Assembly: GCA_003194435.1 (NCBI GenBank)
Contig: PQXC01000010.1
Coordinates: 1-64,000, forward strand
DNA from: Candidatus Methanophagaceae archaeon
Lineage (GTDB): Archaea; Halobacteriota; Syntropharchaeia; Alkanophagales; Methanospirareceae
DNA length: 64,000 bases
Direction of reading: 5' to 3'
This document shows, one piece after another, positions 4,222 to 36,866 of the stretch. Below the pieces are notes generated by a model. The model ran no database searches. It saw nothing but the letters and a program-made list of their open reading frames with translations, and had not been told where the DNA came from. Position 1 is the stretch's first letter. Each line of letters begins with the position of its first letter. The translations under genes and the position numbers were made by a program.

Positions 4222-5681
4222 TCCTCACCAAAGAACCTTCGTATCGCCGGGTACATCTCCATCATCTGCTCCGATGCCACTTGCTCATAAAGGTTATAAG
4301 CAATACTCACAGCCAGTAATAGCCCGGTACCTGAAGCCTGACCAAGTGTACCAAATATATTTGCCAGTACACACAGTCCACCAAGAAGTGCACCACCCAT
4401 TATCGCTATTCGTGGTATATAGCCCTCCATCATTCGCTCTATCGTTGCTGGATTCCTGCGGTGTCCAGGTATCTGCAGCCCAGAGCGATGTATCTGCCGT
4501 GCAACATCTTTAGCACCCATACCTGTGGTATTTATCCAGAACAGTGCAAATATCGCACCCCCTACCACCATAAAAGTCAGATCAATACCAAGGCGCAGAG
4601 CTATTTGCCAGCCCGCGTGTGGTGTTGACATGAGTGCTGGAAACCAATCCCAGGGTCCATAGATCGGACTCAGATAATACATCAAACCAGATACTGCATT
4701 GCCCCATTCATCATACGTCCCGAATACGGTAACTCCATGCATCCAGAGTGCTCGCCCGAAACCCTGAATACTCATTTGCAGCGCTCTTACGAGTATCATT
4801 GGCAGTACACTCGCATATAACAGCTTGATAGGGAACCTACCACGGGCTCCTCGCGCCATCGAATGTGCCAGCGGTATCTCCAGGCGCGTGCTCTCCAGAT
4901 AAACAACAATGAAGAACACCGCGATAGTGGATATGAGAGCGATCAGGTGATGTTGAAAGAGGAATGTAATACCACCTTCCAGTATCTCATACGCTTCCAC
5001 ATGCAGTGGCGAGCCGGGCCAGAGTAACTGGAACCACCTGGGAATTACACCAACCGGCAGCCCGCTCAGGTCTGGTTGCCAATTAATGAGTCCGGTAATT
5101 ACCTGCTGCGATACGCCGGCGAGAATGAAGAGCGAGACACCGGACCCTATCCCCCACTTTGATACTACCTCATCCATGAAATATATAAGCATCCCACCGA
5201 GAAATACCTGAATGAACAACAGTATAGAGATAATTTGTAGAGATACACCGAGTTTTGAAGCTATTCCCGCATCAGGCTTATAGAAGCCCATTACATAGAC
5301 CAGGCTCATAAAGAGTGCGAATACCACAACGAGAATCTTCTGGATGTTCTGGTAGAATGCCTGGTCGCTGGAGTTACTCAAGTCCAGTTTAATTATCCCG
5401 GCGCCTACGAGTAGCTGCAGAATGATTGACGCATCTACAATCGGCATTATACCCAGGGCAGTCAGTGAGAATCGCTCACCTGCGAATATAGCGCGCCATC
5501 TACCAAAAAGGTCCAATGATTCAGGAGAGAGCCCAAAAAGGGGCACATTACCAAGTGCAAAATAGAGTATGAGTATGCCCAGAGTCCATCCCAGCTTGGT
5601 CTTGAAATGGACATGCCAACCCGGGCGCTCAACCATCGGGAATCTATCCAGAATCGGTGTCAGTATCTCTCTTAAGTTCAT
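4218..5681 (-). CDS. secY: Preprotein translocase subunit SecY
   Basis: 487 aa with ten hydrophobic segments, forming the channel of the Sec translocon in the cell membrane. The amphipathic N-terminus (LREILTPILDRFPMVERP), the plug region after TM1, and the cytoplasmic loop PIKLLYASVLPMI match archaeal SecY. It follows the L15 gene after a 40-bp spacer of tetranucleotide repeats and overlaps amzA downstream. The ATG at 5681 has only a weak Shine-Dalgarno sequence because the spacer is so repetitive. Confidence 0.96.
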   Translation of the reverse strand: MNLREILTPILDRFPMVERPGWHVHFKTKLGWTLGILILYFALGNVPLFGLSPESLDLFGRWRAIFAGERFSLTALGIMPIVDASIILQLLVGAGIIKLDLSNSSDQAFYQNIQKILVVVFALFMSLVYVMGFYKPDAGIASKLGVSLQIISILLFIQVFLGGMLIYFMDEVVSKWGIGSGVSLFILAGVSQQVITGLINWQPDLSGLPVGVIPRWFQLLWPGSPLHVEAYEILEGGITFLFQHHLIALISTIAVFFIVVYLESTRLEIPLAHSMARGARGRFPIKLLYASVLPMILVRALQMSIQGFGRALWMHGVTVFGTYDEWGNAVSGLMYYLSPIYGPWDWFPALMSTPHAGWQIALRLGIDLTFMVVGGAIFALFWINTTGMGAKDVARQIHRSGLQIPGHRRNPATIERMMEGYIPRIAIMGGALLGGLCVLANIFGTLGQASGTGLLLAVSIAYNLYEQVASEQMMEMYPAIRRFFGEE

Positions 5682-5721
5682 TTACTTACTCACTCACTTA
5701 CTCACTTTATTCTTTATTCAT
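5682..5721. repeat. Tetranucleotide-repeat spacer between L15 and secY
   Basis: The 40 bases between the L15 stop and the secY start are a near-continuous run of ACTT/ACTC units on the plus strand (GTGA/GTAA on the coding strand). This leaves no clear Shine-Dalgarno sequence for secY. It looks like a slipped-strand expansion. Confidence 0.7.
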
Positions 5722-6177
5722 TCACTCCTCAATTGGCATTTCAATCATTTCAATCCTGCCACCCGCTTCCTCTATCTTCTCCTTTGCTATACCTGATATC
5801 TCATTCACTCTCACTATCAGCTTCGGCTTTCCTCTCAATTCTCCCCTGCCCAGTATCTTCCTTATTCCGAGTTGTGTGGCATCGAGGAAAACAGCATCAC
5901 CTCGCTCTTCCGCTTTACCTGTTTTTATCAGCTCCTCCAGCTTCTCTGCCAGTTCACCCACGTTCATTATTGCGTCGTAAGTTTTAGAATTAGAATGGCG
6001 TGCAGAACCAGAGCCCTGTTTCCCTTTCTTCATGCCCTGCTTCAAGGAACGGACGAAATGATGCGCATAAGCGCCCGCATTACCTGAACCACCCTTACTT
6101 CCTTTGCCTCGCCTCTTCTTGTGTGAGCCCCCGCCACAGGTTCTTGTACCCCTTATCTTCTTTACTCTCTTCTTCAT
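5722..6177 (-). CDS. rpl15: Large ribosomal subunit protein uL15
   Basis: 151 aa. The basic N-terminus with RTCGGGSHKKRRGKGSKGG is the diagnostic glycine-rich rRNA-binding tail of archaeal/eukaryotic uL15 (L27a-like). The C-terminal half carries AVFLDATQLGIRKILGRG and the EEAGG turn. The ATG at 6177 begins MKKRVKKIRGTRTCGG, matching homologues; an upstream in-frame start would add 14 atypical residues. It heads the L15-SecY-amzA unit and diverges from tbp. Confidence 0.95.
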   Translation of the reverse strand: MKKRVKKIRGTRTCGGGSHKKRRGKGSKGGSGNAGAYAHHFVRSLKQGMKKGKQGSGSARHSNSKTYDAIMNVGELAEKLEELIKTGKAEERGDAVFLDATQLGIRKILGRGELRGKPKLIVRVNEISGIAKEKIEEAGGRIEMIEMPIEE

Positions 6178-6280
6178 CTCTACCCTTACCAACCCTAACG
6201 TGATGTACCCTATTTGCACAGAATTTATCCTTCTTATTTATATATGTTGCTTTTATATCACAACATTAGTTTCATATCAT

Positions 6281-6290
6281 ATTTTATATA
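6281..6290 (+). promoter_or_regulatory. Probable TATA box of the tbp-mvhD-hdrA unit
   Basis: ATTTTATATA lies about 25 bases before the tbp start codons at 6308/6311, which would give a leaderless or nearly leaderless transcript. A second candidate, TTTTATAT near 6251, would give a leader of about 30 bases containing the GGGAGG next to the start codon. Confidence 0.5.
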
Positions 6291-6307
6291 ATCGGGGGTC
6301 AGGGAGG

Positions 6308-6871
6308 ATGATGGAAGTAGATATAGATGTAGATATAAAAGTAGAGAACGTTGTGGCAAATGCGAGGATTGCTGATGAGTTAGATCTGAAATACATAGAA
6401 TCAAAGTTAGAAGATGCGGTATTCACGAAGAAGAAATTCCCCGGGCTGGTGTATAGGACACACAATCCGAAAGCTGCTTTCCTTATCTTCCGTTCGGGAA
6501 AAGTGGTTTGTACGGGCTCGAAGACCGAGGAAGGTGTGCGTAAAGTGATGGACATACTTGCCGCAGACCTCAGGCGTATAGGGATTGAAGTGGCAGAACA
6601 TCCGGAGTTCAGGGTACAGAACATCGTTGCTTCTGCCAATCTCGGAAAGGAACTTAATCTCGGTGCCATTGTTGTGGGTTTAGAACTCGAGGGCATGGAA
6701 TACGAGCCTGAGGTATTCCCCGGACTGGTATATCGTATAGAGGAGCCAAAAAGTGCTATACTGATATTCAGCTCGGGACGACTGGTTATAACGGGTGGGA
6801 AGACAGTTGAGGACTGCAAGAGGTCGGTGAGGGTTTTATTGAAGAAATTAAAGGATTTAGAACTGATTTAA
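6308..6871 (+). CDS. tbp: TATA-box binding protein
   Basis: About 187 aa with the two pseudo-symmetric ~90-residue TBP repeats: VENVVANARI...FPGLVYRTHNPKAAFLIFRSGKVVCTG and VQNIVASANL...FPGLVYRIEEPKSAILIFSSGRLVITG. It binds the TATA box and recruits TFB and RNA polymerase. ATG codons occur at 6308 and 6311. The N-terminus is a run of alternating VDID residues encoded by a hexanucleotide-like repeat that varies from other TBPs. mvhD follows after only six bases, an unusual operon partner for a general transcription factor. Confidence 0.97.
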   Translation: MMEVDIDVDIKVENVVANARIADELDLKYIESKLEDAVFTKKKFPGLVYRTHNPKAAFLIFRSGKVVCTGSKTEEGVRKVMDILAADLRRIGIEVAEHPEFRVQNIVASANLGKELNLGAIVVGLELEGMEYEPEVFPGLVYRIEEPKSAILIFSSGRLVITGGKTVEDCKRSVRVLLKKLKDLELI

Positions 6872-6877
6872 AGTGAG

Positions 6878-7297
6878 ATGTTTGAGCCCAGAATCGTGGC
6901 TTTCTGCTGTAATTGGTGCTCCTATGCAGCCGCAGACCTCGCAGGTATATCGCGCTTTCGGTACCCGCCAAATGTGCGCATAGTGCGTGTGATGTGCTCA
7001 GGGCGAGTAGAACCCGAATTTATCTTCGATGCCTTCAAACACGGTGCTGATGGTGTTATTATCACTGGGTGCCATCCCGGGGAATGCCATTATATATCGG
7101 GCAACCTGAATGCCGAGCGCAGGGTAGAGAACGTAAAGAAGGCAATGGAGTATCTGGGAATTGAACCGGGACGTCTCCGTCTGGAATGGATGTCTGCTGC
7201 CGAGGGCGAGAGATTTGCAGCGGTCATGCGTGACTTCACAGCCGAGATAAGAGCGCTGGGTCCTCTTATGCGTGGGAATGACGGGGATAAGAGATAA
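6878..7297 (+). CDS. mvhD: MvhD-like [2Fe-2S] electron-transfer subunit
   Basis: 139 aa, the usual size for the delta subunit of F420-non-reducing hydrogenase. Conserved cysteines are in FCCNWCSYAAAD, VMCSGRV and TGCHPGECHY. In the MvhADG-HdrABC complex MvhD passes electrons to the flavin of HdrA, where bifurcation occurs. Here hdrA starts immediately after its stop codon, so an MvhD-HdrA module is made without hydrogenase subunits or HdrBC nearby. The partner donor is therefore unknown; formate dehydrogenase, F420 or ferredoxin-linked modules are possible. Confidence 0.93.
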   Translation: MFEPRIVAFCCNWCSYAAADLAGISRFRYPPNVRIVRVMCSGRVEPEFIFDAFKHGADGVIITGCHPGECHYISGNLNAERRVENVKKAMEYLGIEPGRLRLEWMSAAEGERFAAVMRDFTAEIRALGPLMRGNDGDKR

Positions 7298-8743: not shown

Positions 8744-9517
8744 ATGAAGAAGGCATTTGCAGGAAAAAGGAAAGTGCTAATAATTGGCATTGTTTTTGTA
8801 ATAGCAATCGTGGGTATCATGGCTACACCCATGGTAAAACAGCCAGATGAAGCGGGAAAACGAGCGGAACCCACTGAAAATGAACTTCCCACAGAGGTAA
8901 AGTCTGAAATAGAGCGCTTGCTACTTGAACCTGAAATACATCTAAGCAGATGGTCGGTGAATACAGCGGAAAAGAGAGTAGATATTTTTGTATACAAACT
9001 GACACCGGAGAATGAACGATTAAATGGCAAGATTATCGATGGATGGACGATGAACATAAGTGAAGATGTAGAATTTAAGAGGGGAGAAGAGAAGCTTAAC
9101 GCAGAGCTAAAACGACTCAAAGAGAAACCGGAGACGGAAATAGGTGCATGGTCGTATGGGTGGGATCCTCGAACAGGCTATAAGGACGTAAATATATTTG
9201 TTGGTAATCTCACACCAGAGAACCAGCAATTAAACGGCAAGACGATTAATGGATGGAAAGTTCATGTGTGGAAATCGTTACTACCGCCAAAGGAAGTGGC
9301 ACTACAAGACTCGAGGGTGAAAGAAAGAATAGAAGGAAAAGAATACGAAGTTAAGGAACATACAAGAAAGGCTGGTGGTGATAAAGAAATATTGGTAGAT
9401 GTTTATATACGCATAAAAGAGCCTAAAAAGACCGTTATTGCTACTGTTGATGTGGTAAAGCAGGAAGTAATAGAGATAAACGAGACAAGTTCGTGGATAT
9501 CCATACCCGAAAGGTGA
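8744..9517 (+). CDS. Membrane-anchored protein with two tandem LTPEN/LNGK repeats
   Basis: 257 aa, not recognised. Residues 10-28 are one hydrophobic helix after a basic N-terminus, so the rest should face the outside. Residues 55-105 and 121-175 are two copies of one domain: a charged helix, a PE..I..W motif, then V(D/N)IFV, LTPEN, LNGK and GW. A third, weaker VDVYIRIKEP strand follows. The repeats look like a small alpha/beta fold and may be a binding domain. The gene stands alone on plus between hdrA and gap; its stop is followed in the same frame by a radical SAM gene fragment. Confidence 0.7.
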   Translation: MKKAFAGKRKVLIIGIVFVIAIVGIMATPMVKQPDEAGKRAEPTENELPTEVKSEIERLLLEPEIHLSRWSVNTAEKRVDIFVYKLTPENERLNGKIIDGWTMNISEDVEFKRGEEKLNAELKRLKEKPETEIGAWSYGWDPRTGYKDVNIFVGNLTPENQQLNGKTINGWKVHVWKSLLPPKEVALQDSRVKERIEGKEYEVKEHTRKAGGDKEILVDVYIRIKEPKKTVIATVDVVKQEVIEINETSSWISIPER

Positions 9518-9616
9518 TGCGAGGATTTCCTCAGCACCAATTTCCCACTGCCGCAAAGCGAGCTCATCCTTAGTGGTGGTGAACCTTTGCTGCATCCAGC
9601 ATTGATGAGCATATAA
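9518..9616 (+). pseudogene. Fragment of a radical SAM protein gene
   Basis: Directly after the preceding stop codon, and in the same frame, about 32 codons encode a piece ending at TAA 9614-9616. It contains ELILSGGEPLLHPALM, the sequence that follows the iron-sulfur motif in SPASM/PqqE-type radical SAM enzymes. Neither the CxxxCxxC motif nor the rest of the barrel is present, so this is debris. The 450-bp gap 9518-9967 otherwise holds hairpins, a short ORF and the gap promoter. Confidence 0.6.
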
Positions 9617-9967: not shown

Positions 9968-10984
9968 ATGATAAAAGTAGCGATAAATGGTTGGGGGAGA
10001 ATAGGCAGGATAGTATTTAGAGCTGCATTAAAAAATGATGCAAGTGCTGATATAGATTTCGTGGCAATAAATACTCATGCTGCAGAGGCGAACTGGATGG
10101 CGCATCTGTTAAAGCACGATTCTGTGCACGGCGTCTGCGACTGCGATATAAAGGCGGAGAAGGACAGGCTGATAGTGAACGGCAAGGAGATACCGATATT
10201 CGCGGAGACGGAGCCTGATAAATTGCCATGGGGCGAATTGGGTGTGGATGTGGTGGTGGAATCAACGGGTAAGTTCAGGAGCCGGGAAGACGCATCAAAG
10301 CATATCACCGCTGGCTGCAAGAAGGTTATAATAACCGCACCAGCGAAAGACCCCGATGTGACCGTTGTACCCGGCGTCAATGACGACATGTATGACCCCG
10401 CATCACATAATATCATATCCCTCGCCAGTTGCACCACCAATTGCCTGGCGCCAGTAGCGAAGGTGCTGGAGGACGAGTTTGGAATAACAAAAGCGTTCAT
10501 GACCACCGTCCACTCATATACGAGCGATCAAAGATTACTTGATGGCAGGCATCGCGATTTGAGACGTGCTCGTTCGGCTGCAATGTCAATAGTGCCAACG
10601 ACGACCGGTGCAGCAGCGGCGATAGGGGTGGTAATGCCCTCTCTTGCCGGTAAGATGGACGGCATATCGCTCCGTGTGCCCACTTTCGATGCCTCTATTG
10701 TTGACCTCGTGGCTGAGGTTGGACGAGAAGTGAACCCGGAGGAGGTGAACCAAGCCTTTGAAGCGGCGTCAAAGGGCTCTCTGAAAGGTATCCTTAGCAT
10801 CACTTACGAGCCTCTTGTATCCATAGATTACATCGGTACGAATTACTCCGCAGTTGTTGATGCGGGTTACACGAATGTACGGGGTGGTAACCTAGTGAAG
10901 GTGCTCGCATGGTATGACAACGAGTGGGGATATTCATGCAGAGTGGTGGATATGTTGAAGCAGATAGAAGAGAAGGGGTATTAG
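9968..10984 (+). CDS. gap: Bacterial-type (class I) glyceraldehyde-3-phosphate dehydrogenase
   Basis: 338 aa. NAD(P)-binding INGWGRIGR at the N-terminus, catalytic Cys in ASCTTNCLAP, the HSYTSDQRLLD segment with catalytic His, and WYDNEWGYS at the C-terminus identify the bacterial/eukaryotic class, not the class II enzyme usual in archaea. After the second strand the sequence reads AINTHAAE, so the Asp that selects NAD is Thr. In the gluconeogenic B. subtilis GapB the same place is Ala, so NADP use is likely (inference). pgk follows 16 bases downstream, giving a two-gene lower-glycolysis/gluconeogenesis operon. Confidence 0.96.
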   Translation: MIKVAINGWGRIGRIVFRAALKNDASADIDFVAINTHAAEANWMAHLLKHDSVHGVCDCDIKAEKDRLIVNGKEIPIFAETEPDKLPWGELGVDVVVESTGKFRSREDASKHITAGCKKVIITAPAKDPDVTVVPGVNDDMYDPASHNIISLASCTTNCLAPVAKVLEDEFGITKAFMTTVHSYTSDQRLLDGRHRDLRRARSAAMSIVPTTTGAAAAIGVVMPSLAGKMDGISLRVPTFDASIVDLVAEVGREVNPEEVNQAFEAASKGSLKGILSITYEPLVSIDYIGTNYSAVVDAGYTNVRGGNLVKVLAWYDNEWGYSCRVVDMLKQIEEKGY

Positions 10985-11003
10985 CAAAGAGGAGGGCAAA
11001 GTG

Positions 11004-12221
11004 ATGAATAATGAGGATTTAAAAGAGTTCCTGACCATTGACGATCTCGATGTGGAAAGTAAGACGATCTTCTTCAGGGCTGATATAAACTCGGTGGTTG
11101 TAGACGGGAAAGTGCAGATGAAGGAGCGGATAAAGGAGAATGCAAAGACAATTCGTGAACTCTCAGCAAAAAAGGCGAGGGTTGTTATTCTCGCACATCA
11201 GGGTCGTGTAGGAGGTGCGGATTTCCTGCCTCTGGAGCAGCATGCGGAATTACTGAGGAACTTCGTTGACTTGAGGTATATTGATGACGTAATGGGACCG
11301 GCGGCGCGCGATGCGATAAGGAAGCTCTGGGATGGTGAAGTTCTACTACTTGATAATGTGAGGCTACTTGCGGAAGAGACGCTTCAGAGGACGCCGGAGG
11401 AGCATGCAAAGTCAATATTCGTGCAGAAACTCGCTCCACTCGCTGATATCTACATAAATGATGCTTTCTCAGTAGCACACAGGTCGCATGCATCGGTGGT
11501 GGGCTTCCCGAAGGTGCTGGAATCGGGTATAGGGCGATTAATGGAGCGTGAGTTGAGAGCACTGCGAAGAGCGGTCCATAGCATAAGGAGACCCTGCATC
11601 TATGTTCTTGGTGGTGTGAAGTCCGAGGAAGTATTTGATGTGATGGAACACACGTTGAAGCGAGGTAAAGTAAATGAGATACTCACCGCAGGCACTCTCG
11701 GTACCTTATTCCTGTATGCACGCGGTATAATTGAGCCGAGCGAAGAGGATAAGAGGAACAAGAAGTTCATGGAGAACCTGGCGAGGGCGAAGCGGATTCT
11801 GGAGCTCGGAGATGACAAGATAAAGTGCCCGAAGGATGTTGCAGTGGAGGTGAATGGTAAGAGGAGGGAGATACCCGCTAATTCTGTAAAGCCGAAGCAG
11901 AAGGTGTATGATATAGGGGAGGAGACGGCGAAGGAGTATGCAGAGGAGATAAAAGGAGCGAAGACGGTGATAATGAAGGGACCTGCAGGCTGGTACGAGC
12001 ATGAGGCATTCCGAAAGGGTACAGAGGAGATACTGCGTGCACTCGCATCCTCTGATGCCTTCTCGCTCATCGGCGGTGGGCATACCTCGGCTGCTATGAG
12101 CACGCTTGGAATAAACAAGCAGAATTTACCACACACTCACGTCAGCCTTGCAGGAGGTGCATTCTTACACTATCTACTGGAGAAGAATCTGCCAGGGATA
12201 GAGGTACTGAAAAGATACTGA
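11004..12221 (+). CDS. pgk: Phosphoglycerate kinase
   Basis: About 405 aa, typical of archaeal PGK. The FRADINSVV start, LAHQGRVG loop, INDAFSVAHRSHASVVGF and the C-terminal nucleotide motif LIGGGHTSAAM are family signatures. It interconverts 1,3-bisphosphoglycerate and 3-phosphoglycerate with ATP. ATG 11004 is seven bases after the GAGGAGGG ribosome-binding site; a GTG one codon earlier is possible but too close. It sits in an operon behind gap and converges on mtd. Confidence 0.96.
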   Translation: MNNEDLKEFLTIDDLDVESKTIFFRADINSVVVDGKVQMKERIKENAKTIRELSAKKARVVILAHQGRVGGADFLPLEQHAELLRNFVDLRYIDDVMGPAARDAIRKLWDGEVLLLDNVRLLAEETLQRTPEEHAKSIFVQKLAPLADIYINDAFSVAHRSHASVVGFPKVLESGIGRLMERELRALRRAVHSIRRPCIYVLGGVKSEEVFDVMEHTLKRGKVNEILTAGTLGTLFLYARGIIEPSEEDKRNKKFMENLARAKRILELGDDKIKCPKDVAVEVNGKRREIPANSVKPKQKVYDIGEETAKEYAEEIKGAKTVIMKGPAGWYEHEAFRKGTEEILRALASSDAFSLIGGGHTSAAMSTLGINKQNLPHTHVSLAGGAFLHYLLEKNLPGIEVLKRY

Positions 12222-15382: not shown

Positions 15383-17093
15383 TGGTAATAGTTGTGGGTT
15401 CCGGCGCGGGTGGTGCAACGGTAGCGAAGGAGCTGGCTGCTAAGCATATAACGGTGAAATTGATCGAGCGGGGACCGGCGATAGAGGAGAAGGATGCCTT
15501 CAGGTGCTATGCTGACACTGAATCGGAAGTGAAGGTTCTGCGAGCGATATGTCTGGGTGGAAGCACAACGGTATCAGCCGGTAATGGTGTGAGATGCCTG
15601 GAAACGGAATTGAGAGAAGCTGGTATTGATTTAAAGCATGAATTTGAGGCTGCGGAGCGTGAACTCGGGGTCTCTGTTCTTCCTGATGCCTTATTTGGCG
15701 AAGGAACAAAGCGGATTATGGAAGCTGCGGAGAGTCTCGGCTTCAAGATAGAGAAAACGCCTAAGTTCATAGACGCAGATAGATGCAAGCCCGATGGGAG
15801 ATGCGTATTCGGGTGTCCGGAGGGTGCTAAATGGACCGCATTGAGGTTTGTGCAAGAGGCGCGGAGAGAGGGTGCGAAGATAATTACGAATACAACGGTG
15901 GATGAGGTGGTGGTGAAGAGCGGGGAAGTGAAACGGTAGCGAAGGAGCTGGCTGCTAAGCATATACCGGTGAAATTGATCGAGCGGGGACCGGCGATAGA
16001 GGAGAAGGATGCATTCAGGTGCTATGCTGACACTGAATCGGAAGTGAAGGTTCTGCGAGCGATATGTCTGGGTGGAAGCACAACGGTATCAGCCGGTAAT
16101 GGCGTGAGATGCCTGGAAACGGAATTGAGAGAAGCTGGTATTGATTTAAAGCAAGAATTTGAGGCTGCGGAGCGTGAGCTCGGGGTCTCTGTTCTTCCTG
16201 ATGCCTTATTTGGCGAAGGAACAAAGCGGATTATGGAAGCTGCGGAGAGTCTCGGCTTCAAGATGGAGAAAACGCCTAAGTTCATAGACGCAGATAGATG
16301 CAAGCCCGATGGGAGATGCGTATTCGGGTGTCCGGAGGGTGCTAAATGGACCGCATTGAGGTTTGTGCAAGAGGCGCGGAGAGAGGGTGCGGAGATAATT
16401 ACGAATACAACGGTGGATGAGGTGGTGGTGAAGAGCGGGGAAGTGAAGGGTGTCAGGTGTGGTGACCGCGTATTCTCAGATGATACAGTTGTTCTTTCCG
16501 CTGGCGCTCTTGATACGCCATTGCTACTGGAGAAGCTCGGACTACCCACAACCTCAAAATCCCTATTCGTTGACACCTTTATAACAATCGGCGGCGTTCT
16601 CAAAGGCGTGGGGCTCAGCAGGGAAGTGACGATGAATTGCTACGTGAAGATGAAAGAGTTCATGCTTGCACCACATTTCTCGAAGCATCTCGTGGAAGCA
16701 CTGGCGATGCGGGGCATAAAAGTTTCACATGCGGACATACTCGGTATAATGGTGAAGATAAAGGATGAGGGGCGCGGGGTTGTTAATGGTGGTAAGGGCG
16801 TGAGCAAAGGAGTAACAGGTCGTGATGCGGCGAGATTATCAGAAGGAGCTTCTATTGCTGGTTCGATACTGGAGACGGCAGGTGTCGAACCCGGAACCTT
16901 CGTCGCCACACCGCTAAGAGGTGCGCATCCAGGCGGGACTGCGAGGATTGGTAGCGCTGTTGATAGGAACCTGGCGACAGAGGTGGACGGGCTATACGTG
17001 GTAGATGCGTCGGTGCTTCCAGCAGCGCCCGGTGCACCGCCTATACTGACAATCGTGGCACTTGCTAAGTATCTCTCAAAACGGCTCTCATAG
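15382..17093 (+). pseudogene. GMC-type FAD oxidoreductase gene split by a 515-bp internal tandem duplication
   Basis: Reads from ATG 15382 (VVGSGAGGATVAKELA, FAD dinucleotide motif) to a premature stop at 15937-15939 after 185 codons. The frame resumes in a second copy (GTG 15969) and runs to 17093, ending in GGTARIGSAVD...GLYVVDASVLP, the GMC C-terminal motif. Removing one 515-base unit restores one frame of 398 codons, the expected intact protein. Cysteines in DRCKPDGRCVFGCPEG suggest a metal or cluster site. It overlaps porB by one base. The 374-codon downstream frame lacks the dinucleotide motif, so a working enzyme is unlikely unless reading shifts. Confidence 0.8.
15417..16446 (+). repeat. 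Direct tandem duplication, 2 x 515 bp
   Basis: Units 15417-15931 and 15932-16446 align without gaps. I count seven substitutions (98.6 percent identity), four of them changing the amino acid (T to P, H to Q, I to M, K to E). The unit length is not a multiple of three, which creates the frameshift. Confidence 0.93.
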
Positions 17094-35501: not shown

Positions 35502-36866
35502 TCACCCTTGCCTTTTCCGCACTATCAAATATGCAACGCCGAGAGTTCCTGCGATGGCAACTATCGCTTCGAAGCCGGGTTCTTCAGGCGTAGGCGTGGG
35601 TGTTGGTGTTGGTGTTGCTTCCAGTTCAAGCGGGATCCTCTCTCCCAGCACGATGCTTCCGTCATCGGCAATTGAGAATTCACAGTAAACTCCAGACACA
35701 TCGCCATGCTCATCAAAGGTGATTTCACCCGAAGCGCCCTGATAGTTTATCTCCTTCCCCTCACGAATAAGTCTTAATGCTTCTCCTATATCGCTGACTC
35801 CTTCACCCGGCGGATTTGCAACGTCCCTTATACTGTCCCGGATAGCTGTCCCGGAAGCTTTTCCCGCCTTCTCTATTGCCAGTGCCACGACTGCCGCAGC
35901 GTCATAACTGTTGGAACAGTAGGTTGTGGGTTCTTTACCATATTCCGCTATATACTTCTGTTTGAACGTTTCGTACGAAGGACCTATCGCTCTTGGGTCC
36001 GGTGTTGTACCTTTGAATCCCGCTATGATGTAGTTACCAGCAGTGTCTTTGCCCACCATCTCAGCCAGCGTTTCATCTCGTAGCCCCTCGGAAAGCAGCC
36101 AATCAATGTCTTCCATATACCCCTTCTCATAAGCCGTTTTCAGTATCACACTGCCGGTCTTCGGATATGAGCACAGCATTACGAAATCGGGCTTCGGTTT
36201 GCAAGCCTTTTCAACTTCCGAGTCGAAAATAGTTCCTGCCGGGTCGTATCTCACGGTCTCCAATACCTTACCGCCAAGCCTTTCAAACTCCTTCACGAAA
36301 ACGTCCTCAAAACCCACTCCATAGGGGTTATTCAGCACCAGCGTGCTTGCGGTTGTATATCCTTCCTTGATGGCAAGGTGTGCCATTGCTTTCCCCTGCA
36401 ATGCGTCTGATGGGCACGTCCGGAAGTAAAGGTCGTTGTCTGGATATGAGGTAAAGTCAGGAGCGGTGTTGGACGGAGAAATCTGAAGGACGCCGTTGCC
36501 CGTGGTAATGTCAATGATTGCCATGCTCGAGCCGCTACCGGTTGCACCGATGACCACAGGTACTTTGTCCACCTTAACGAGCTTGTTTGCTGCGTCCACA
36601 GATGCCGATTCCGACGTCTGTGTGTCTTCAACGATAAGTGTGAGATTCTTACCAAGCACACCACCGTTCTCGTTCACCTCTTTCACCGCCAGCCGTATTG
36701 CGTCAGTCATAGGTTGACCATAGGTGCCCAGGTCACCGGTCAATGCCTGCATAACTCCTATTTTCACCTCCTCTGCTGCTAACGCATTGCCACCTGATAG
36801 GAAGACTGCCAGAACCAGAGCGGCTATCACTAAACCTGAACCTGCCTTCTTCATCTTCATGTTCAT
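35502..36866 (-). CDS. livJ: Branched-chain amino acid-type ABC substrate-binding protein with PGF-CTERM anchor
   Basis: 454 aa. A signal peptide (residues 1-30, KAGSGLVIAALVLAVFLSGG) precedes a periplasmic-binding fold starting VKIGVMQALTGDLGTYGQPM. The C-terminus has a PTPTPTPTPEEPG linker, then PGFEAIVAIAGTLGVAYLIV and RKRQG: the PGF-CTERM sorting signal recognised by archaeosortase A, which replaces the tail by a lipid anchor. It faces away from livHMGF, although in most operons it is co-directional. Confidence 0.93.
   Translation of the reverse strand: MNMKMKKAGSGLVIAALVLAVFLSGGNALAAEEVKIGVMQALTGDLGTYGQPMTDAIRLAVKEVNENGGVLGKNLTLIVEDTQTSESASVDAANKLVKVDKVPVVIGATGSGSSMAIIDITTGNGVLQISPSNTAPDFTSYPDNDLYFRTCPSDALQGKAMAHLAIKEGYTTASTLVLNNPYGVGFEDVFVKEFERLGGKVLETVRYDPAGTIFDSEVEKACKPKPDFVMLCSYPKTGSVILKTAYEKGYMEDIDWLLSEGLRDETLAEMVGKDTAGNYIIAGFKGTTPDPRAIGPSYETFKQKYIAEYGKEPTTYCSNSYDAAAVVALAIEKAGKASGTAIRDSIRDVANPPGEGVSDIGEALRLIREGKEINYQGASGEITFDEHGDVSGVYCEFSIADDGSIVLGERIPLELEATPTPTPTPTPEEPGFEAIVAIAGTLGVAYLIVRKRQG

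Follow-up and report, generated by a model that had tools for sequence, protein, structure and literature searches.

The closest described systems are the triceptide RiPP clusters, the alpha-lytic protease pro region and the PepSY proteins. Triceptide clusters encode radical-SAM (rSAM) enzymes that form three-residue cyclophanes, and their precursors are cross-linked from residue i to residue i+2, with links from Trp to Asn or Asp among them (PMC11002830). The likeness to the loci described here is an rSAM gene beside a W-x-D/N protein; the putative substrates in our loci differ in their length of 130-743 residues, with the triplets near the start, and some of the loci differ in having an NTPase and an LTPEN-domain partner. 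The alpha-lytic protease pro region (PF02983; structures 2pro, 3pro and 4pro) is resembled by the strand and helix order predicted for the LTPEN unit, which in contrast has no Pfam match, reaches the pro region only at weak E-values and shares its chain with no serine protease. The PepSY proteins, in which we provisionally group YpeB, YpmB and the M4 propeptides, are approached by the predicted fold of a C-terminal module in the same chain (VIA Z 5.9-6.9), which differs in having no match to PF03413.

Here we describe a 257-residue LTPEN protein from a window of 64,000 nucleotides, the whole stretch of DNA analysed, which comes from a methane-consuming archaeon. The protein is probably a leftover partner of an rSAM cassette, because its domain adjoins or is fused to proteins of that cassette in other archaea. 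The analysis defines an undescribed domain family, for which a fold is predicted. It also links unannotated archaeal NTPase, rSAM, Cys/His, W-x-D/N and LTPEN genes into a cassette that is present in the order of the methane-oxidising ANME-1 archaea and elsewhere in the same phylum.

The two-repeat protein and its domain family

The gene (8744-9517, plus strand) is an intact open reading frame of 257 residues with an ATG start and no internal stops. Its most hydrophobic 19-residue stretch, at the hydropathy peak, begins at residue 11 (mean Kyte-Doolittle 2.78) and forms an N-terminal membrane helix or signal anchor (residues 11-29; 8774-8830, plus strand); it follows five Lys/Arg residues, so that the remainder of the chain should lie outside the cell. 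An earlier note on this DNA had proposed an exported protein with a single membrane helix before its repeats; this one N-terminal stretch agrees with the proposal, and export stands as the likely consequence of the helix and the positive charge ahead of it. Behind the helix lie unit 1, at about residues 44-107 (8873-9064, plus strand; profile match 8885-9076, E 1.8e-25), and unit 2, at about residues 115-181 (9086-9286, plus strand; profile match 9089-9280, E 4.9e-24). The note had placed two clear repeat copies at residues 55-105 and 121-175, and they are real: residues 51-105 and 117-175 are identical at 25 of 55 aligned positions, with a Smith-Waterman score of 126 between the units against a maximum of 56 among 5000 shuffles of unit 2. 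Absent from the note were a third module unlike the repeats (residues 182-253; 9287-9502, plus strand) and an rSAM gene remnant after the stop codon.

The LTPEN domain has 65 residues and a conserved core of PE..I..W, V.IwVy.lTPEN and L..k.I.gW. With E<=0.001, a profile built from 25 units matched 27 of the phylum's 392 genomes, 14 in the family of the window's genome and 13 outside it, and each of the latter 13 carries at least two matches. Our first profile matched none of the seven genomes inside the class but outside the family; its weak matches in G110 (E 0.0035) and G115 (E 0.0066) were absent with the broader profile and were excluded. Within the window's own genome, where the note had suggested looking for other LTPEN proteins, searches with the whole protein and with the unit profile returned only the two units of the window gene.

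The note's failure to recognise the domain was well founded. A known Pfam or NCBIfam domain was rejected for the window protein, which matched no family at E<=10, and among the LTPEN relatives scanned no above-cut-off model from either collection covered the unit. A solved relative of the LTPEN protein or of its unit by sequence was likewise rejected: the best match of the whole protein was a radial spoke protein at E 0.058, and the sole profile match below E 0.001 (21nr_A) proved to be a repeated chance stretch in four pieces, each with an i-Evalue of 230. Searched viral contigs held no relatives, PHROGs held no phage family for LTPEN or for the NTPase described below, and the anti-phage defence search (PADLOC) returned only viperin-type matches, from the two rSAM proteins. 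A literature search, in which subscription papers were thinly covered, found no description of the domain or the cassette. A 522-residue LTPEN protein (L058, 2967-4535) matched NCBIfam TIGR04292, a CGP-CTERM Cys-rich protein, at E 1.7e-35 and 122.6 bits against a cut-off of 200; its LTPEN unit forms the end of a protein related to this family.

Predicted folds of the repeat unit and the C-terminal module

AlphaFold predicts one LTPEN unit as helix-strand-strand-helix-strand (H-E-E-H-E; pLDDT 80.3 and pTM 0.64, from a shallow alignment of six sequences), and models residues 31-257 as two such units followed by an H-H-E-E-E-E module (pLDDT 80.6 and pTM 0.55, again shallow, with nine sequences). 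The first Foldseek match of the unit is a ribosomal chain (7oya_D2, E 0.14); many of the ribosomal matches resemble protein S3, and some carry that name. The alpha-lytic protease pro region follows, weakly (2pro_B at E 0.17; 3pro_C with probability 0.82 and TMq 0.58), and the pro-region matches as a whole span E 0.17-0.29 and probability 0.80-0.82. VIA again placed a ribosomal chain best, at Z 7.1, and for the full model 4pro_C ranked second in Foldseek (E 0.084, probability 0.47). The window protein has no match to PF02983 at E<=10; a genome search with this model was silent too, as were its positive controls. No serine protease follows the units in the chain, as unit 2 is succeeded by only 76 residues, the C-terminal module.

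This module is predicted to adopt a cystatin- or PepSY-like fold, with weak fold matches, and has paralogues in L064, L046 and L047; the copy in the window's own genome (G000:C2:2175-2396) is 50% identical and lies within a 302-residue protein. Its best VIA match is Escherichia coli copper amine oxidase (1qak_A; Z 8.1, rmsd 2.8, 69 residues aligned), and a designed cystatin fold (4r80_A) comes next at Z 7.3. Next, all under that tool's caution level of 8, come vibriolysin MCP-02 (3nqy_A, 6.9), an Aspergillus metalloproteinase (4k90_B, 6.5), YpeB (5boi, 6.4) and YpmB (2gu3, 5.9), whose matched chains we take to be propeptide or PepSY domains. The PepSY sequence model PF03413 matched neither the window protein (E<=10) nor anything in its genome, against matches in 4 of 14 control genomes. 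Prodomain-like modules may thus occupy both halves of the LTPEN protein; with all fold matches weak, this is suggestive only.

The cassette around LTPEN genes

Around the LTPEN relatives a recurring neighbour set was read from gene calls, made by a simple greedy caller that missed, for example, the rSAM gene of L189 and the full Cys/His gene of L108. The linkage of LTPEN to genes for an rSAM subfamily, a CbiA-like NTPase and a Cys/His protein is well supported. The NTPase has a lone Pfam hit, to CbiA at E 0.03, below the cut-off and in one of three proteins scanned; a solved relative by sequence was rejected, as none fell below E 0.66. It occurs in 14 of the 392 genomes and shares eight of them with LTPEN (G028, G161, G186, G209, G225, G281, G366 and G372). 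The two genes lie within 5 kb of each other in all eight, on the same strand in seven, and the nearby NTPase match is partial in three (G161, G225 and G281). The hypergeometric probability of this co-occurrence, 4e-7, overstates the case, since the genomes are related and not independent.

The rSAM subfamily was found in 18 of the 392 genomes (E<=1e-25), and in six of these it lies within 2 kb of LTPEN (G001, G028, G048, G186, G266 and G372), on the opposite strand in G028 and G048 and split between two frames in G001. At these fixed distances and E-value cut-offs, and among related genomes, the rSAM subfamily, a piece of it or the NTPase lies within 6 kb of LTPEN in 13 of the 27 genomes, counting the pieces in G003 and in the window's own genome; the other 14 have neither, some of them on short contigs. 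G186 and G372 show the full order rSAM, NTPase, Cys/His and LTPEN on one strand, with genes that overlap or stand 11-16 bases apart. A second rSAM-type protein precedes the cassette rSAM in L106 (9962-10891), L188 (3-1055) and L189 (2808-3848); its N-terminus resembles a twin-arginine signal, and in L106, the only one scanned, the Pfam TAT_signal model fell just under the cut-off.

In G161, G169, G186, G209 and G372 the LTPEN gene is immediately preceded, at a distance of 6-18 bases and in the same orientation, by the Cys/His gene; G266 has a Cys/His gene directly upstream as well, reading in two frames. These counts come from the gene lists of fetched loci and are lower bounds. Fusions join the same partners: in G042 and G015 an entire Cys/His domain and an LTPEN unit share one signal-bearing chain, and an 829-residue protein in G372 (contig C9) has half a Cys/His domain followed by two LTPEN units. 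Homology links the operon-encoded Cys/His domain with the N-terminal region of the G042 and G015 proteins (41% identity over 179 residues between G186 and G015, E 7e-40). One Cys and one His are kept in all nine aligned domains, an alignment from which incomplete domains were left out (L120, the second frame of L106, L112 6346-6864 and L046). From the shape of the motif we considered a transglutaminase- or cysteine-peptidase-like domain; as none of the Pfam and PDB profiles backs this or otherwise identifies the domain, the identity stays a lead.

Proteins of several kinds adjacent to rSAM genes carry W-x-D/N runs, such as MGWGDWGNWSD in L170 and MGGWGDWSGDWSGDWSDWSDW in L192, and the LTPEN loci with such runs are those of G028, G001, G186 and G031, the last within a short open reading frame. 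The G186 protein alone shows a clear run among the nine Cys/His proteins that were aligned. Three or more W-x-[DNEQ] triplets per 20 residues were present in 6 of 55 open reading frames near rSAM or NTPase genes and in 2 of 821 others (Fisher 1.2e-6, for a motif framed after part of the data had already been viewed), and one of the latter two, in L189, adjoins the rSAM gene missed by the caller; with at least two triplets the counts were 8 of 55 and 27 of 821. Relatives of the W-x-D protein of G021 occur in 7 of the 51 genomes of the family, G021 included, each with the rSAM subfamily on the same contig, and six of the seven directly adjoin the rSAM gene or, in G003 and G039, a piece of it. 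An aromatic-x-D/N motif in a gene adjoining an rSAM gene, the gene-level mark of triceptides, is thus present in the rSAM clusters, to which this comparison was confined. NCBIfam models of cyclophane maturases scored these rSAM proteins far under their cut-offs. The L192 protein at 4798-7029, 743 residues long and beside an rSAM gene, begins with seven W-(x)x-D units; its weak PHROG hit is to a major head protein (E 8e-4), and this contig may be viral or proviral.

These runs raise the prospect of an undescribed protein-tailoring system in archaea of this phylum, in which the rSAM enzyme, helped by the CbiA-like NTPase, would cross-link the W-x-D/N runs that Cys-rich, Cys/His and other proteins carry close to their start, LTPEN/PepSY-like membrane proteins would serve the Cys/His type as outside partners (prodomain, inhibitor or receptor), and the window protein would be the last remnant of one such system. 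We regard this wider scheme as speculative and rather improbable; if the rSAM enzyme does act on W-x-D/N runs, cyclophane-type tailoring would extend to larger archaeal proteins.

State of the window locus and competing explanations

Directly after the stop codon of the window gene, 27 codons (9518-9598, plus strand) match residues 42-68 of the 279-residue rSAM protein of L057 at 78% (tblastn, E 2e-9); the same DNA also matches rSAM genes of L048, L185, L186, L187 and L191. G003 likewise has rSAM fragments directly downstream of its LTPEN gene, and in G045 and in G007, which is of the same genus as the window's genome, such fragments lie next to shortened genes. Besides its LTPEN gene, the window retains only this 81-base remnant of the rSAM, NTPase and Cys/His arrangement, and the window gene is an orphan relative of the cassette, not an intact cassette. 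In its genome, an assembly 93% complete, searches for the cassette NTPase, for the rSAM subfamily and for the G021 W-x-D protein all found nothing; at that completeness their absence is likely but not certain.

Close relatives of the orphan gene are disrupted: the L046 copy is split between two frames, L047 has stops in its 5' part, L048 lacks 473 internal bases, not a multiple of three, and G045 keeps the C-terminal module alone. Against L046 the window copy gives a dN/dS of 0.29 over 199 codons (codons 44-242), with 0.25 for unit 1, 0.30 for unit 2 and 0.32 for residues 183-242; constraint appears weaker against L047 (0.41, 83 codons) and the L048 C-terminal module (0.65, 83 codons and 10 changes). 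With cassette parts absent, relatives broken, the window copy open and dN/dS at 0.29-0.65, we read the gene as a cassette orphan that is perhaps still used.

We tentatively favour an explanation in which the LTPEN chain is the outside, membrane-anchored partner of the cassette's Cys/His protein. The cassette would comprise the rSAM enzyme, the CbiA-like NTPase, the Cys/His protein and an extracytoplasmic LTPEN partner; the two LTPEN units and the PepSY/cystatin-like module would form a chain that binds the Cys/His protein outside the cell and acts in the manner of a prodomain, as chaperone or inhibitor; and in the window's genome the cassette would have decayed to the rSAM remnant, outlived by an orphan LTPEN gene. 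A signal peptide is not obvious by eye in the operon Cys/His proteins, which counts against their meeting an LTPEN domain outside. The earlier note had instead suggested a surface-binding family; nothing that we found points to surface binding, and neighbourhood and fusions suggest a partner of the rSAM/NTPase/Cys-His cassette. Because half of the LTPEN genomes lack rSAM and NTPase neighbours (14 of 27), the main rival is an extracytoplasmic module of general structural or ligand-binding use, which would have been shuffled into many exported proteins of archaea, the cassette being only one of its settings. Single units near the end of 491-522-residue proteins (L054, L056, L057 and L058) or alone, flanked by a signal and a C-terminal helix (L052 and L061), fit such a module, as does the lack of cassette NTPase or rSAM subfamily matches in the genomes of L052, L054, L056, L058 and L061. 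It accounts less readily for LTPEN lying within 5 kb of the NTPase in 8 of the 14 NTPase genomes, or for the Cys/His partner, which stands immediately before LTPEN in six genomes and is joined to it in one chain in two, and we consider it possible, if somewhat less probable than a cassette partner.

That the window gene is a decaying relic without present function would agree with the rSAM remnant behind it, the broken relatives (L046, L047, L048 and G045) and the dN/dS of 0.65 against the L048 module. However, the window copy remains open over 257 codons, some breaks in the relatives may be assembly errors, and dN/dS is 0.25-0.32 against L046, itself interrupted, so that the constraint may be partly old; we think a relic unlikely. 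An extracytoplasmic sensor or anti-regulator domain paired with nearby winged-helix regulators would draw on the HTH proteins of one kind in L052, L053, L057, L058 and L059 (that of L057, alone scanned, is HTH_20), but no HTH gene adjoins the window gene or stands in the G186 and G372 operons, and we give this idea very little credence.

Elsewhere in the window, a direct repeat of at least 300 bases (15408-15707 and 15923-16222; 97% identical, spacing 515 bases) is either a recent duplication or an assembly artefact. The stretch 35526-35654 (minus strand) resembles the C-terminus of the L059 TolB-like protein (51% over 43 residues, E 5e-6), the matched part of which hits Pfam PGF-CTERM, and perhaps encodes another exported protein. 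A GAPDH-like frame at 9968-10984, beginning MIKVAINGWGRIGR, adjoins a phosphoglycerate-kinase-like frame at 11001-12221, both named by eye; the former resembles what we take to be the bacterial-type enzyme, presumably unusual for archaea.
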